A stretch of 53,855 nucleotides of DNA, from positions 1 through 53,855 of the forward strand of contig JAJEIH010000109.1 of assembly GCA_022827685.1 (NCBI GenBank). Reading direction: 5' to 3'. The notes under the pieces are model-generated. The model was not told the origin of the DNA, made no database searches, and saw nothing but the letters and a program-made list of their open reading frames with translations. Position numbers and translations under genes: made by a program. This DNA comes from Alphaproteobacteria bacterium. GTDB taxonomy: Bacteria; Pseudomonadota; Alphaproteobacteria; Bin95. Shown in pieces: positions 22,706-32,270 of this stretch. How positions within the stretch are numbered: the stretch's first letter is position 1; every line of letters begins with the position of its first letter.

Positions 22706-23796
22706 CCGGCCTGCCGCGCTGGCTCGACATCGGCGTCCTCCCGCTCGTCAATCTGGCGCTTGCGCTGCTGGCGGCGGCGGTTGTCGTCGCGCTGGTCGGC
22801 GAGGACCCGCTGGAAGTCTTCGCAGTGCTCCTGCAGGGGGCGTTCGGGCCGGGCGCGCTCGGCTACACGCTCTACTACGCGACCAATTTCGTCTTCACCG
22901 GACTTGCCGCCGCGCTCGCCTTCCAGGCGCGGCTGTTCAATATCGGGGCGGAGGGCCAGGCGACGCTGGGCGGCCTCGGCATAGCGCTTGCCTGCCTCTC
23001 GCTCGAAACCGTGCTGCCGGGCTGGCTTGTCGCGCTCGTGGCGATTGCCGGCGCGGCGCTGTTCGGCGCGGCATGGGCAGTGGTGCCGGGCTGGCTGCAG
23101 GCCTATCGCGGCAGTCATATCGTCATCACCACCATCATGTTCAACTTCCTCGCCTCCGGGCTGATGGTCTGGCTGCTTTCCGGACCGATGATGCGTCCGG
23201 GCCAGGGCTCGCCGCAAACGCGGCTGTTCGACGAGGCCGTGCGCCTGCCGGCGGTCCACGACATCGTCCGGGCCCTCGGCTTCGAGGCCGCCCGCTCGCC
23301 GCTCAACCTCTCCTTCCTGTTCGCGCTGATTGCCTGCGTGGCGGTCTGGGTGCTGGTCTGGCGCACCAAGTTCGGCTATGCGCTCCGCGCCATCGGCCAC
23401 AGCGAGGAGGCGGCGCGCTATGCCGGCATTCCCGTCCGCCGGGCGGTGGTGGCCGCCATGGCGCTCTCCGGCGCGCTCGCGGGCTGCATGGCGCTCAACG
23501 AGGTGCTGGGCGTCCAGCACAAGCTGGTGCTCAACTTCTCCGCCGGCTACGGCTTCACCGGCATTGCGGTGGCGCTCATGGGCCGCAACCATCCCCTCGG
23601 CATCCTCGCGGCCGGCCTCCTCTTCGGCGCGCTCTTCCAGGGCGGGGCGGAGCTCAATTTCGAGTTCGAGACCATCACCCACGAGCTTGCCCTGGTGATC
23701 CAGGGGCTGGTGATCCTCTTCTCCGGCGCGCTTGCCTACATGTTCACGCCCTGGCTGGCGCGCCTTCTGCTCGCGCGGAACGCCGCCCATGCCTGA
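22702..23796 (+). CDS. ABC importer permease (BMP/nucleoside type), subunit 1
   Basis: A 364-residue membrane protein with about eight to ten helices. The motifs FNIGAEGQATLGG and LRAIGHSEEAARYAGI are diagnostic of the branched-chain/sugar-type inner-membrane permease family paired with BMP-binding proteins. It overlaps the ATPase by 4 nt and the second permease by 8 nt. Confidence 0.9.
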   Translation: MTGLPRWLDIGVLPLVNLALALLAAAVVVALVGEDPLEVFAVLLQGAFGPGALGYTLYYATNFVFTGLAAALAFQARLFNIGAEGQATLGGLGIALACLSLETVLPGWLVALVAIAGAALFGAAWAVVPGWLQAYRGSHIVITTIMFNFLASGLMVWLLSGPMMRPGQGSPQTRLFDEAVRLPAVHDIVRALGFEAARSPLNLSFLFALIACVAVWVLVWRTKFGYALRAIGHSEEAARYAGIPVRRAVVAAMALSGALAGCMALNEVLGVQHKLVLNFSAGYGFTGIAVALMGRNHPLGILAAGLLFGALFQGGAELNFEFETITHELALVIQGLVILFSGALAYMFTPWLARLLLARNAAHA

Positions 23797-24763
23797 GCTC
23801 TGGATCGACGTGTTGACGGTCCTGGACGGGACCGCCCGGCTCGCCGCGCCGCTCATCTTCTGCGCCATGGCGGGGCTCGTCTCCGAGCGCTCCGGCATCG
23901 TCGATATCGGCCTTGAGGGCAAGCTGCTGGCCGGCGCCTTCGCCGCTGCTGCGGTCGCCACACTGACCGGCTCGCCCTGGGCGGGACTTGCCGCCGCGCT
24001 CGCCGCCTCCGTCATGCTGGCGCTCGTCCACGGCTTTGCCTGCATCACCCATCGCGGCGAGCAGATCGTCTCCGGCGTCGCGGTGAATATCCTTGCGCTT
24101 GGCATGACCGTGGTGGTGGCGAATGCGCTCTTCCGCCATGGCGGCCACACGCCCGCTCTCGGCGCGGGCGAGCGCTTTTCGCCCATCGCCCTGCCGTTTG
24201 CCGAAAGCCTCAGAGAGGTTCCGCTTCTGGGGCCCCTTTATGCCGAGCTGGTATCCGGCCACAACCTGCTGGTCTATGCGGCCTTCCTGTCCGTGCTGCT
24301 GGTCTGGTGGCTGGGCTGGCGCACGCGCTTCGGGCTCAGGCTCCGCGCCGCGGGGGAGCTGCCGGAGGCGGTGGACAGCGCCGGCGTTTCGGTGTCGGCG
24401 CTCCGCTATCGCGGCATCCTGATAGCGGGTCTGCTCTGCGGGCTGGCCGGTGCCTATCTCTCGATAGCCCACGGCGCGGGCTTCGTGCGCGAGATGAGCG
24501 CGGGCAAGGGCTTCCTCGCGCTCGCCGCGCTGATCTTCGGGCGCTGGAGGCCGCTGCCGGTCCTCTTCGCCTGTCTCCTGTTCGGCCTGCTGGACACGGT
24601 GGCGCCGAGGCTCCAGGGCATGGAGTTGCCGCTGATCGGCCCGGCGCCGGTGGCGCTCGTCTCGGTGCTGCCCTATGCGATGACGGTCGTGTTGCTGGCC
24701 GGCTTCTTCGGCCGCGCCGTCCCGCCCGGCGCTCTCGGCCGCCCCTTCGTCAAGGAGCATTGA
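23789..24763 (+). CDS. ABC importer permease (BMP/nucleoside type), subunit 2
   Basis: A 324-residue membrane protein, the second permease of the importer. [20 protein letters not shown] near the N-terminus and [17 protein letters not shown] in the middle are the expected family motifs. The start ATG 23789 lies inside the previous gene. It pairs with the upstream permease to form the channel; leuB follows after 68 bp. Confidence 0.9.
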
Positions 24764-25947: not shown

Positions 25948-26522
25948 AGGGCGGCAGGCTTGAATGGGGCGAAGGCCCGGCGCGCGGTTGGCAGCCGGTG
26001 CCGCGGCCGGTGGTGCGTCCGGTTCGGCCGAAACGCCTGCCGGTCTGGTGGCCCCGGGCGAAGGCATTGCTGGAACAGGGCCAGTCCCTGAAGTCGGTCG
26101 GCGAGACGGTGGGCGTCACCTCCCAGAGAGTTCAACAGGTAGCCCGCAAGGCCGAGGGCCAGGGGGAGGTCTTCGAGCGGCGGCGGCAGAATCCTCCCGC
26201 GCCGCGGCCCTGCGCCCAGTGCGGGACCGTGTTCCGGCCTCACAGCGAAAAGTCCGCCTACTGCTCCAGGCAATGCGCTGGTCGGGCCCGGAGCGAAAAG
26301 GCCTTGTCCGACGAAACGGTCCGGCGCGCCTTCGAATTGCGCGCCGCCGGAAAGTCCTACAGGGAAATCGCAGACATCATGCGCATCTCGCCGGATCGGT
26401 CATGGCCTCTTCGCCAGAGACGGGCGCGGCACTTCATTTATGTGTGGGCCCGGCGGGCCGGCGTCGATCCGCCCGGCCCGGCGCCCAAGCCCCGCCCGCG
26501 CCGCCGCCGGGCCGAAAATTAG
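25944..26522 (+). CDS. Two-HTH, zinc-finger-like DNA-binding protein
   Basis: A 192-residue protein that I cannot name. A first helix-turn-helix (about 40-70; [20 protein letters not shown]) is followed by a CX2C-X13-CX3C motif (CAQCG and YCSRQC, about 91-112), which resembles a zinc ribbon, and a second HTH ([20 protein letters not shown], about 135-158). The ends are Arg/Pro-rich. Such a chain suggests a DNA-binding regulator or resolvase-like adaptor. GTG 25944 overlaps the leuB stop. The stop overlaps the convergent PIN toxin gene by 4 nt. Confidence 0.65.
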
Positions 26523-26911
26523 AGAAGTTCGATTTCCGCGCCGTGGCCGGCGGCGCCGGCGAGCCGCCGGTCGCGCGTGACCAGCGGCGCGTCCAGCACT
26601 TCGGCAAGCGCGACATAGACTGCGTCATACGCCGTAAGGTTGTGGCGCAAATCCCACACCCGAGGCAACAGCATGTCGTGCGGATACCGCCGGATGGGCA
26701 TGTCGGCGAGGTCAGCCATGGCCTCGCGACCATGCTGGCTGTCAATCTCTCCCGCCCGGGCGTAACGGCGCAGAACCTGGGCGGTCTCGACATCGATGAG
26801 ATATGGCGCGGCGAGGGAGTCGCCCGAATCGAAAAGCCGGGCCGCAACGGTTCCCGCGGCGTCCGAGGGTAGAAGCAGGTCGACGACGGCGGAGGCGTCG
26901 ACGACGATCAC
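26519..26911 (-). CDS. vapC: PIN-domain toxin (VapC family)
   Basis: A 130-residue PIN-domain ribonuclease. The acidic residues are visible in MIVVDASAVVDLLL (first Asp), ETAQVLRRY (Glu), LTAYDAVYVALAE (Asp) and LVTRDRRLA (Asp). Toxins of this type cut RNA and are held in check by the product of the gene just upstream, with which it overlaps by 4 nt. Its targets are unknown. Confidence 0.88.
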   Translation of the reverse strand: MIVVDASAVVDLLLPSDAAGTVAARLFDSGDSLAAPYLIDVETAQVLRRYARAGEIDSQHGREAMADLADMPIRRYPHDMLLPRVWDLRHNLTAYDAVYVALAEVLDAPLVTRDRRLAGAAGHGAEIELL

Positions 26912-28631: not shown

Positions 28632-29720
28632 TCCCGCAAGGCCGGCGTGGACGTCGAGGGTTTTCAGGCCGGAGCCCGTCAGCACGAGCACCAGGTCGTC
28701 CTCCGGGATCTGCGGCAGGGCTGCTGCGGCGGCCGCGGAGGTCGGCTCCAGGAACCAGCCGGACCGGGCAAGCCGCTCCAGGACGCCGAGGATCGCCTCC
28801 TCGCTGACGACGGGAACCGAGCCGCCCGTGGCCCGGACGGCGTCCGCCACCATCCGGCCCCTGATCGGCTGCGCCGTCGCGATGCCGTCTGCGACGGTCG
28901 GCCCCCGCGGCAGGGCCCGGCCGTCGAACAGGGCGCGGATGGGGGCGCTGTTCGCCGCCTGCACCGCATGAAGGCGGGGCAGCGCCTCGATTTCTCCCGC
29001 CTCCTGCAACTCCCGGAAGCCGAGATGGAGGCCGAGTATGTTGGCGCCGTTGCCGCAGGGCGCGACCACGGCCGCCGGCGCGCGGAAGCCCAGCTGCTCC
29101 CATAGCTCGAAGGCGAGCGTCTTCGTGCCTTCGAGGAAGAAGGGCTGGCGGTTATGGCTCGCGTAAAAGAGTTCCTCCGCAGCCGCGAGCGCCGCCCGCT
29201 CCACGGCGTCGCGGTCTCCGGCCACTTCCTGCAATTCGGCTCCGGCGGCGGCGATCTGGACCCGCTTCGCCGCCGGTGCGCTCTCCGGCACCATGATGCG
29301 CGCCCGGATGCCCGCAGCGGCGGCGTAGGCGGCGATGGACGCGCCGGCATTGCCAGAACTGTCTTCCAGCAGCGCCTCCACGCCCGCCTGCTTCAGATGC
29401 GACATCATGATGGCCGTGCCGCGGTCCTTGAAGGAGCCGGTGGGCATCAGGTGTTCGCATTTGAAGAGGAGCCGGCGGCCGTCCCAGTCCGTCTCGACCA
29501 GCGGGGTAAAGCCCTCGCCTAGGCTCACCCGGCCCCCGTCTTCCACGCGGATGGCGGCGCGGTAGCGCCAGAGCGACGGCTCGGACCGCTCGATCTCGTC
29601 CCGCGCGAGGCCTTGTCCCGGCGTCAGGCCCAGCAGGCCGCCATCGTCCGGCGCGCGCCAGAATGCCCGGTCCGCAGGCCAGCTCGCGCCCGTTCGCGGA
29701 TTGATGTAGGAAGCGCGCAC
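28617..29720 (-). CDS. Threonine-synthase-like PLP enzyme
   Basis: A 367-residue fold-type II pyridoxal-phosphate enzyme. The PLP lysine is in PTGSFKDRG, the substrate loop is EDSSGNAGASIAAY, the phosphate loop is PCGNGANI and TGSGLKTLD closes the site. It resembles threonine synthase (L-threonine from O-phosphohomoserine); related dehydratases are an alternative. GTG 29720 is the start. The start region is the left half of a diverged duplication whose other copy lies before typA. Confidence 0.75.
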   Translation of the reverse strand: MRASYINPRTGASWPADRAFWRAPDDGGLLGLTPGQGLARDEIERSEPSLWRYRAAIRVEDGGRVSLGEGFTPLVETDWDGRRLLFKCEHLMPTGSFKDRGTAIMMSHLKQAGVEALLEDSSGNAGASIAAYAAAAGIRARIMVPESAPAAKRVQIAAAGAELQEVAGDRDAVERAALAAAEELFYASHNRQPFFLEGTKTLAFELWEQLGFRAPAAVVAPCGNGANILGLHLGFRELQEAGEIEALPRLHAVQAANSAPIRALFDGRALPRGPTVADGIATAQPIRGRMVADAVRATGGSVPVVSEEAILGVLERLARSGWFLEPTSAAAAAALPQIPEDDLVLVLTGSGLKTLDVHAGLAGLSGP

Positions 29721-29818
29721 CGCCGAACCTTCCCGTCCGTTTGCCGTCCCTTACCGCGCGTCGGCGCGGCGGAATACCGGCCATCATGGCGGATTTGACC
29801 AATATCGCCATTGCGGCC
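29695..29818. repeat. Diverged junction repeat, left copy
   Basis: This 124-bp stretch matches 32144-32270 over its full length, beginning with 25 of 26 identical bases around CGGATTGATGTAG and ending with AATATCGCCAT. It contains the intact start of the PLP-enzyme gene and a decayed copy of the start of typA. The right copy has the reverse state. The repeats flank the NCS2 permease and YciI genes. Confidence 0.75.
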
Positions 29819-30005: not shown

Positions 30006-31772
30006 GTGGCAGAGCGAACGACCGACGGGGCCGCCGCAGACCGCCGCGAACCCGGCACGAAGGTCCCGCTCCCGCTTACGACGGGGCTGGGTCTTCAGAT
30101 CATGGTGCTCGCGCTCCCCGGCTCGGTACTGATGCCGACCGTCGTGTTCCAGTCCGCGGGCCAGCCCGACGACGTGCTGGTCTGGGCCGTGTTCGCCTCC
30201 GTAGCTGCCTGCGGCGTGACGACGATGCTTCAGGCCCTGCGCGTCGGCCGGTTCGGCGCCGGCTACATCGTCGTTGCCGGAACCACCGGAGTTGCGATCG
30301 CCACAAGCGTTTCCGCCCTGGCTGCGGGCGGCCCGGCCTTGCTTGGCGCCCTTGTGATCGCCCTGGCGCTTTTCCAGTTCGCGTTCTCGACCCGGCTGTC
30401 GCTGTTCCGCCGCGTCCTGACGCCGACGGTCACCGGTACGGTCATGATGCTGACGCCGGTGACTGTCATGCCGATAATCTTCCAGCAGTTGCAGAATGTG
30501 CCCGCCGGAACGCCGCATGCTGCTGCCATTCTCAGCGCGCTGACAACCTTGCTCGTTACCGCCGGCATTGTGCTGAAGGCAGGGCCGAGCCCGCGTCTGT
30601 GGGCGCCGATCGTCGGAATCGTCGCCGGCTCGGCCGTTGGGGCAGTTTTCGGCCTCTACGACTTTGCGCTTATCGCCCAGGCTTCGTGGCTCGGCGTTCC
30701 GGCAGGCCAGTGGCGGGCCCCGGACCTCGACTTCGGCCCCGCTTTCTGGACGCTTCTCCCGGCTTTCCTGTTCATCGCCCTGGTCTGCACGATCCAGACG
30801 ATAAGCGGCGCCGTCGGGATCCAGCGCGTCTCGCGGGCCGGGCCCAGGGCAGTGGATTTCCGGCCCGTTCAGGGAGCGGTGGCGGCGGACGGCGTCGGTA
30901 ATCTGCTCTCCGGACTGGCGGGCACCATGCCGCTCGGCTTCCGCCCGACCGGCGCGTCGATGGTGGAGCTGTCCGGAATCGGTTCCCGACGGGTCGGGGT
31001 CGCGGTCGGCGCAGCGCTGCTCGCCGTGGCTTTTTTGCCGAAGGCGTTGGCCGTAGTCCAGGCTATTCCCGGACCGGTCACGGCCGCCTTCCTCACCGTA
31101 ATAATGGCGACGATTTTCGTCGTCGGCATGAAGATGATCGTCCAGGACGGCGCCGACTACCGGAAGGGCCTGGTCGCCGGGGTCGGCTTCTGGATCGGCG
31201 CGGGTTTCCAGAGCGGCGCCGTCTTTCCGGCGCAGGTCTCGGAATTCGCCGGCGGCTTCCTCAAGAACGGAATGATTGCCGGCGGCCTCGCAGCCATTGT
31301 CATGACCCTTTTCGTCGAGTTGGCAAGGCCGCGTCTCCGCCGGATCGAACTGCCGTTCGATGCCGCGGCCCTGCAGGAGGTCCAGGCGTTCGTTCGCGCC
31401 TTTGCGGCGCGCAACGGCTGGAGCGCAGGCATGGCGGACCGTCTCGACGCAGCGAGCGAGGAGACCATGCTGACCCTGCTGGACCAGGACGAAGCCGCCG
31501 GCGAGGCCGGGCAGCGGCGGCTGTTTCTGGTTGCGCGGCGGGAAGACAGCGCTGCGGTCCTCGAGTTCGTCGCCGCCGAAAGCAAGGAGAACCTTGAGGA
31601 CCGGATCGCCCTGCTCGGCGAGGCGGGCGCCTCCGATTCGCTCGAACGGGAAGTGTCGCTCCGCCTGCTGCGCCACCTTGCATCCTCGGTCCATCATCAG
31701 CAGTATCACGACATCGACATCGTGACGGTGCGTGTCGATCCGCCGCGAATGGACCGCAGCGGACGATCGTGA
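30006..31772 (+). CDS. NCS2-type nucleobase permease fused to RsbW-like domain
   Basis: Residues 1-440 form an NCS2/SLC23 (uracil-xanthine permease-like) transporter with about twelve to fourteen membrane helices, starting at LTTGLGLQIMVLALPGSVLM and including GTTGVAIATS and RPTGASMVELSGIGSRRVGV. Residues about 447-580 are a soluble domain like the RsbW/SpoIIAB anti-sigma kinases: helix FVRAFAARNG, then DRLDAASEETM and a final LRLLRHLASSVHHQQYHDID. The ATP motifs are degraded: the expected Asn is Thr and no DxGxG is seen. The GTG start is inferred. Substrate is probably a nucleobase; the fused domain suggests cytoplasmic regulation. Confidence 0.8.
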   Translation: MAERTTDGAAADRREPGTKVPLPLTTGLGLQIMVLALPGSVLMPTVVFQSAGQPDDVLVWAVFASVAACGVTTMLQALRVGRFGAGYIVVAGTTGVAIATSVSALAAGGPALLGALVIALALFQFAFSTRLSLFRRVLTPTVTGTVMMLTPVTVMPIIFQQLQNVPAGTPHAAAILSALTTLLVTAGIVLKAGPSPRLWAPIVGIVAGSAVGAVFGLYDFALIAQASWLGVPAGQWRAPDLDFGPAFWTLLPAFLFIALVCTIQTISGAVGIQRVSRAGPRAVDFRPVQGAVAADGVGNLLSGLAGTMPLGFRPTGASMVELSGIGSRRVGVAVGAALLAVAFLPKALAVVQAIPGPVTAAFLTVIMATIFVVGMKMIVQDGADYRKGLVAGVGFWIGAGFQSGAVFPAQVSEFAGGFLKNGMIAGGLAAIVMTLFVELARPRLRRIELPFDAAALQEVQAFVRAFAARNGWSAGMADRLDAASEETMLTLLDQDEAAGEAGQRRLFLVARREDSAAVLEFVAAESKENLEDRIALLGEAGASDSLEREVSLRLLRHLASSVHHQQYHDIDIVTVRVDPPRMDRSGRS

Positions 31773-31815
31773 GAAGGTTGCCGCGGCGGGGCAGGCCCAT
31801 TCAGGGAGAACAGCC

Positions 31816-32115
31816 ATGTATTTCGCGATTTATGCTACTGACGGGCCGGGCGCCAGCCAGACGCGAAGCGATCTCTTCGAGGATTTTCGCAGCTATCTGC
31901 ATGACCATCCGGACCATCCCGATATCGTTCTGCATCACGCAGGCCAGACGCTTGCCGACGAGGACGAAACGATCGTCGGATCGCTTCTGGTGGTTGAAGC
32001 GTCTTCGCTCGAGGCGGCGCAGGCTTTCTTGGCCGACAGCCCTTACGGTAAAGCCGGTGTTTTCGGCGACGTGCAGGTAAGACGGTGGAACTGGATAACC
32101 GGGCGCCCCGGATAA
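31816..32115 (+). CDS. YciI-like (YCII-related) protein
   Basis: A 99-residue small alpha-beta protein with the family features [13 protein letters not shown], a central HHAGQTLAD and the C-terminal [20 protein letters not shown] segment. The function of YciI proteins is unknown; they form dimeric ferredoxin-like folds, often with a catalytic-looking His-Asp. A GGGAGAA ribosome site precedes ATG 31816. It follows the permease by 43 bp. Confidence 0.85.
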
Positions 32116-32143: not shown

Positions 32144-32270
32144 CACGGATTGATGTAGAAAGCGCGCACCGTCCAGGCTTTCCGGTCGGTATCCCGATGC
32201 CGACTGCCGCCTGCGGCGCGCCGGAATGTCCGTCATCGTGAACGATCTGCGCAATATCGCCATCATCGCC
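32144..32270. repeat. Diverged junction repeat, right copy
   Basis: Partner of 29695-29818. It contains the intact typA start. On the minus strand it holds a copy of the PLP-enzyme start, MRAFYINP instead of MRASYINP, which then runs into unrelated sequence. This is the mirror image of the left copy. Confidence 0.75.

Follow-up and report, generated by a model that had tools for sequence, protein, structure and literature searches.

The window, a stretch of 53,855 nucleotides from an alphaproteobacterial contig, encodes an NCS2 permease whose C-terminal tail has the fold of the anti-sigma kinases RsbW and SpoIIAB. This tail is a conserved pseudo-ATPase rather than a decaying domain, since its ATP motifs have been lost while its sequence remains under purifying selection. 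In some relatives the gene for such a permease shares an operon with a complete partner switch, which suggests that in these the switch controls the transporter directly. We have found no description of an NCS2 permease with an RsbW-like domain in the open-licence papers searched.

The gene is an open frame of 588 codons with a GTG start, and the assignment of its product to the NCS2/NAT permeases rests on both a Pfam profile match (PF00860, 2e-27, residues 28-400) and the UraA fold. The AlphaFold2 model of the full-length protein (pLDDT 79, pTM 0.74) superimposes on UapA (5i6c) with a Z score of 42.2, at 2.6 Å over 420 residues, and on SLC26Dg, which shares the transporter fold, with a Z score of 31.9. 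The window protein thus has the 14-helix UraA fold and the PF00860 match of permeases of the UapA, UraA and PbuX/XanQ type, but differs from them in its additional C-terminal RsbW-like domain and in the replacement of the purine-binding residues. A paralogue on another contig (C46) of the same genome is 56% identical over its full length, its own tail included. The coordinates of the features discussed here are collected in Table 1.

Table 1. Features of the permease-yciI region, in positions of the window
Feature	Position	Strand	Basis or remark
Left copy of imperfect direct repeat	29697..29811	.	True start of divergent PLP-enzyme gene and relic of typA start
NCS2 permease with RsbW-like tail, whole gene	30006..31772	+	Open frame; paralogue of same architecture; full-length model, pLDDT 79
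Permease core, residues 1-443, UraA fold	30006..31334	+	PF00860, 2e-27; Z 42.2 to UapA 5i6c
TM8 site IQTISG, residues 263-268	30792..30809	+	Q264 and G268 replace UapA E356 and D360, respectively
TM10 site PLGFRPTG, residues 309-316	30930..30953	+	R313, T315 and G316 replace UapA F406, Q408 and N409, respectively
Tail, residues 444-588, RsbW/SpoIIAB-fold pseudo-ATPase domain	31335..31769	+	Model, fold searches, hhalign, dN/dS
Degenerate N-box EETMLT, residues 485-490	31458..31475	+	Both Glu retained; Asn replaced by T490
Place of DxGxG box, residues 519-533, LEFVAAESKENLEDR	31560..31604	+	Motif missing
Place of GxG box and last strands, residues 551-568, SLRLLRHLASSVHHQQYH	31656..31709	+	GxG missing; HQQY near-invariant in family
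YciI-like protein, 99 aa, conserved neighbour in the clade	31816..32115	+	PF03795, 4e-14
Right copy of imperfect direct repeat	32146..32263	.	Relic of PLP-enzyme start and true typA start

The tail comprises about 140-145 residues C-terminal of the last membrane helix. It goes undetected when the full-length window protein and its paralogue are searched with Pfam and NCBIfam, a phmmer search of PDB sequences with the tail gave no useful match, and the HATPase_c_2 profile matches the isolated window tail weakly and below its cut-off (E 0.2), albeit collinearly (7-121 against 2-114 of 127). An AlphaFold2 model built from an alignment of 80 relatives (pLDDT 76.5, pTM 0.75, with low confidence in the lid region) has the element order strand-helix-helix-strand-strand-(helix)-helix-strand-strand, and the first 19 Foldseek matches to it are all RsbW, SpoIIAB or UsfX (best E 2.6e-6). 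VIA-align superimposes Bacillus subtilis RsbW (6m37_C) on the model with a Z score of 15.3 and an rmsd of 2.1 Å over 113 residues, while the ATPase domains of histidine kinases reach at most 7.5, far under the value for RsbW. Profile comparison by hhalign of 86 tails with 11 intact RsbW proteins gives a probability of 97.6% (E 4e-12), and the same comparison with STAS as a control only 0.3%; this value and the structural match to RsbW exclude a STAS domain. A profile of 14 tails recovers free-standing intact RsbW-like proteins (L123, E 2e-5; L124, E 4e-4), both of which were reached only by profiles built from relatives, and in one relative (L183) a single protein scores above the curated Pfam thresholds of Xan_ur_permease and of HATPase_c_2, in the second case with 27.6 bits against a cut-off of 27.4. 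The original prediction had placed an RsbW-like ATPase fold at about residues 447-580 and was to be given up if the fold of the tail proved to lie outside the GHKL family; structure prediction and comparison with RsbW and SpoIIAB put the tail within that family by fold, in agreement with the hhalign comparison, and the predicted fold is borne out.

With the RsbW/SpoIIAB/UsfX anti-sigma kinases (HATPase_c_2, GHKL) the tail shares the fold, the order of its elements, the N-box glutamates and the collinear profile match, but it differs from them in having no ATP-binding motifs, in being fused to a permease and in showing no sign of sigma-factor binding. The two N-box glutamates (E485 and E486 in the window) are present as EE in 84 of 86 group-1 tails and as DE in the other two, and the position of the N-box Asn is occupied by Thr (78), Phe (4), Tyr (2), Ile (1) or Ala (1), and never by Asn. 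At the expected places neither DxG nor GxG occurs in any of the 86, so that the ATP-Mg motifs of RsbW and SpoIIAB kinases (N-box Asn, DxGxG and GxG) are lacking throughout; the exchange of the metal-binding Asn for Thr and the loss of the DxGxG box, both proposed originally for the window protein, hold. Nevertheless the tail evolves under constraint: in 13 pairs its dN/dS lies between 0.08 and 0.49, with a median near 0.14, and that of the core between 0.09 and 0.27. Nineteen tail columns are invariant among 80 sequences, HQQY and N-x-x-D are strictly conserved, and the near-invariant residues E485, E486, N529, D532, H564, Q565 and Q566 lie, by alignment, around the former ATP site. Judged by its sequence, the tail resembles one half of the RsbW-RsbV pair and is not an RsbW kinase, an identity that the motif tests contradict.

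Tail-bearing permeases are widespread. The survey of NCS2 proteins proposed with the original prediction found the tail 20 times among 95 genomes of relatives, 10 of which carry it, nearly all of these matches lying in frames of at least 580 residues and one in a fragment at a contig edge, and a degenerate pattern search of genome_contigs yielded 390 confirmed stretches. The best 80 of these 390, which form our sequence set from that source, come according to their record titles from Pseudomonadota, Nitrospirota, Nitrospinota, Acidobacteriota, Binatota, Gemmatimonadota and others. Many of the group-1 carriers among these best 80 (L023-L102) are metagenome-assembled genomes (MAGs) from several phyla whose names resemble those of sponge metagenome series; the prefixes RHO, COS, IRC, APA, SB06, CO36 and p16x we take to be such series. 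The jk18x series is documented to consist of MAGs from Ircinia sponges (PMC9531527). We regard the over-representation of sponge-derived MAGs among the carriers as probable. A survey with the core alone across 142 genomes of the class showed a clean break, in that each of the eight cores with at least 47% identity bears the tail.

A second group of NCS2 proteins (group 2; L187-L193, L231-L241) has cores of 26-30% identity and a C-terminal domain of its own. Twenty group-2 tails match RsbW by hhalign with a probability of 95.3% (E 2e-8); compared directly with the sponge-type tails, the first seven gave no significant match and the 20 gave 78%. The hallmarks of group 2 are replacement of the TM8 Glu by Arg, Asn, Asp or another residue and the tail motif WGARRD. 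A search of 299 genomes from the phylum found members in two, which belong to the same class, so that the group is rare outside that class.

RsbW, STAS and SpoIIE phosphatase profiles, run over the flanking DNA, showed that in two independent lineages the permease gene is the last of an operon that also encodes a SpoIIE phosphatase, an intact RsbW kinase and a STAS protein. In one (L183, genome G351) a single strand carries, in order, genes for a Peripla_BP_6 protein, a TorS-like sensor-HAMP-SpoIIE-HATPase_c_2 protein, a STAS protein and the tail-bearing permease; in the other (L188, genome G105, group 2) a binding protein, a hybrid sensor, a REC-SpoIIE protein, an intact RsbW and a STAS protein precede the permease, and the STAS and permease ORFs overlap. 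A lone STAS gene lies 25 bp from, and divergent to, a permease gene in a further group-2 locus (L240, genome G181). Genes for intact RsbW, STAS and REC-SpoIIE proteins lie just past the permease gene in four Nitrospira loci, and receiver and REC-SpoIIE genes are found within about 3 kb of it in the Nitrospinota loci and in the untyped L070 and L098, with an intact RsbW in all loci of this type except L065 and L047. The partner-switching set is partly present in the L049-type, L067-type and L240 loci. The recurrent neighbours include YciI, RsbW, REC-SpoIIE and binding proteins, and among the others are out-of-frame ORFs.

A rough binomial estimate puts the chance of three or more lineages having STAS as an immediate neighbour at 3e-4 to 3e-3, taking nine STAS genes per 4000 genes and 30-60 lineages, the number of lineages being a matter of judgement. 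At most loci, those of the window gene and its paralogue included, no partner-switching gene lies within about 9 kb, the profile scan of the flanks finding no RsbW, STAS or SpoIIE gene beside either of these two, and wider sampling of the families to which genomes G351 and G105 belong gave no further copies of their operons. Among the proteins encoded by the genome from which the window derives are four that are RsbW-like and intact and several of the STAS type, all of which could act in trans; narrow profiles found no matching STAS or SpoIIE gene within 10 kb of its RsbW loci.

The permease core of the window belongs to a clade of 31 of the 92 full-length proteins (SH-aLRT 100) in which the substrate site has been remodelled. 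In UapA, xanthine is contacted by E356, Q408 and F406, and no other residue can take the place of E356 or N409 (PMC4837479, PMC3405029); in our alignment all of these, together with D360, are exchanged in the window protein (Table 1), which has T315-G316-A317-S318 in place of the NAT motif [Q/E]-N-x-G and Q264 in place of the TM8 Glu. Sequences like CTIQT[IV]SG in TM8 and PLGFRPTG in TM10 characterize the clade, with the exception of L091/L013, which retains the TM8 Glu, while most other group-1 members have GAIET[VIY]GD and PNTTYSTS at these places. The Q-N-x-G motif has been abandoned by all tail-bearing NCS2 proteins examined and is retained by the tail-less NCS2 proteins of the class. In seven further group-1 members (L049, L058, L063, L099, L060, L097 and L016) the TM8 Glu is likewise gone, but through different changes (DTMQTIS, RTMSS) and with a PNTTYS-like TM10 retained, and at one locus (L044:2633-6173) two overlapping tandem genes encode tail-bearing permeases of different clades, of which a single one has the rebuilt site.

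Because the residues of the UapA purine site are replaced in the clade, nucleobase uptake, which the original prediction had taken for granted, is doubtful for the window protein and not to be presumed. The substrate may be an anion, as is hinted at, though not shown, by the Arg in the pocket together with the loss of both acidic residues. In the group-2 locus L240 (7807-13384) a beta-carbonic anhydrase gene (PF00484, 2e-43) lies between two genes for tail-bearing permeases, from the first of which the STAS gene diverges, an arrangement that hints at bicarbonate or another anion as substrate.

The gene that follows the permease encodes a YciI-like protein with a full-length match to PF03795 (53.2 bits, positions 1-95 of 95). 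The proposed link between the two genes holds within the clade, where a YciI gene is near 23 of 27 loci, against none of 48 other group-1 loci, although a Fisher value for this contrast is not a probability, as the loci are related. The pair is flanked by direct-repeat blocks that are 76-85% identical, each of which holds the 5' ends of both the PLP-enzyme gene and typA, one of each being broken. In five genomes of the same genus (G001, G002, G003, G005 and G006) the site is empty and the PLP-enzyme gene directly adjoins typA, and in two others (G004 and G007) it is filled as in the window. Given these repeats and the empty and filled sites, the permease and yciI genes behave as one unit inserted beside typA. 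Elsewhere in the window are a gene for a PIN-domain (VapC-like) protein at 26519-26911 on the reverse strand (PF01850, 4e-10) and, some 5 kb upstream of the permease gene, one for a BPD_transp_2 ABC permease at 23732-24763 on the forward strand (PF02653, 3e-34).

In a normal partner switch the STAS protein, when dephosphorylated, associates with RsbW until this kinase phosphorylates and releases it. With a dead RsbW on a permease, and STAS, phosphatase and kinase genes in the same operon, the simplest reading is that the tail docks a STAS protein and that transport is an output of partner switching, and we put its chances close to even. An elevator-type (UraA-fold) permease would then be governed through a C-terminal RsbW-family domain that presumably can no longer bind ATP or phosphorylate and that would serve as a non-catalytic dock for the dephosphorylated STAS protein. 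The phosphorylation state of the STAS protein, governed by an intact RsbW kinase and a phosphatase of the SpoIIE type, would be relayed to the permease, making transport, in place of a sigma factor, the output of the switch. In the clade of the window the site has been rebuilt (TM8 Glu to Gln, TM10 Phe to Arg), probably for a non-purine, possibly anionic, substrate, which the neighbouring YciI-like enzyme may process. The fuller proposal, that the dead tail reads STAS phosphorylation and gates transport, mirroring the STAS tail of SLC26, and that one branch is a non-purine (perhaps anion) carrier or receptor associated with YciI that has passed, in part at least as a cassette, between symbionts belonging to several phyla, is offered tentatively, with rather more reserve than conviction.

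The traffic could also run the other way, with substrate occupancy altering the hold of the tail on STAS and the permease acting as an input to a sigma factor or another output of a true RsbW. The linkage to switch genes is equally compatible with this, and a receptor that only binds would be in keeping with the disappearance, in the clade of the window, of residues on which purine transport depends (PMC3405029); however, the operons already have their input, a membrane sensor together with a periplasmic binding protein, the permease comes last in them, and the site is remodelled in one clade only while the tail is common to all, so that we consider such a role unlikely. The pseudokinase-like sensor suggested originally stands as regards the dead RsbW-fold tail, while as regards sensing the operons of relatives fit a STAS-regulated transporter at least as well. 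It is also rather unlikely that the tail has no partner and only stabilizes or dimerizes the permease, in the way that RsbW dimerizes. UapA does function as a dimer (PMC4837479), the STAS domain of a bacterial SLC26 protein is reported to be necessary for stability and function (PMC8256260), and most loci have no partner-switching neighbours, but operons with intact SpoIIE, RsbW and STAS genes and the strict conservation of HQQY and N-x-x-D would then be left unexplained.

Some of the conserved residues invite another explanation, as the seven near-invariant ones surround the former ATP site, and the old nucleotide pocket might bind a different small molecule that controls transport allosterically; the lid region of the model is of low confidence, and we think a metabolite sensor of this kind improbable. 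Persisting kinase or ATPase activity of the tail is scarcely credible, for although the overall fold is that of RsbW, the absence of the N-box Asn, DxG and GxG from all 86 group-1 tails contradicts it.

For the preferred reading, in which a STAS protein docks on the tail, the closest parallel is provided by the SLC26/SulP anion transporters, in which the same transporter fold is joined to a cytoplasmic domain of a kind used in partner switching. The window protein is not itself a member of that family, its tail being RsbW-like and a C-terminal STAS domain being absent; SLC26 proteins carry the STAS (antagonist) half of the switch, whereas the tail-bearing NCS2 proteins carry a dead RsbW (kinase) half. 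MlaB, a STAS protein on the MlaFEDB ABC transporter (PMC7367683), and partner switches with outputs other than sigma factors offer a further likeness in that a STAS protein regulates a non-sigma target, although MlaB binds an ABC ATPase and the permeases described here have an RsbW-like domain. We have not found a transporter of the UraA-type fold described as the output of a partner switch in the open-licence papers searched.

In summary, the tail-bearing NCS2 proteins, which are probably misannotated as xanthine/uracil permeases, would constitute a sister family of transporters, bearing the other half of the switch and in some lineages encoded in operons with an intact phosphatase, kinase and STAS protein, and would lend themselves to two-protein binding and uptake assays. 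If the proposal is true, transport joins the known outputs of partner switching.
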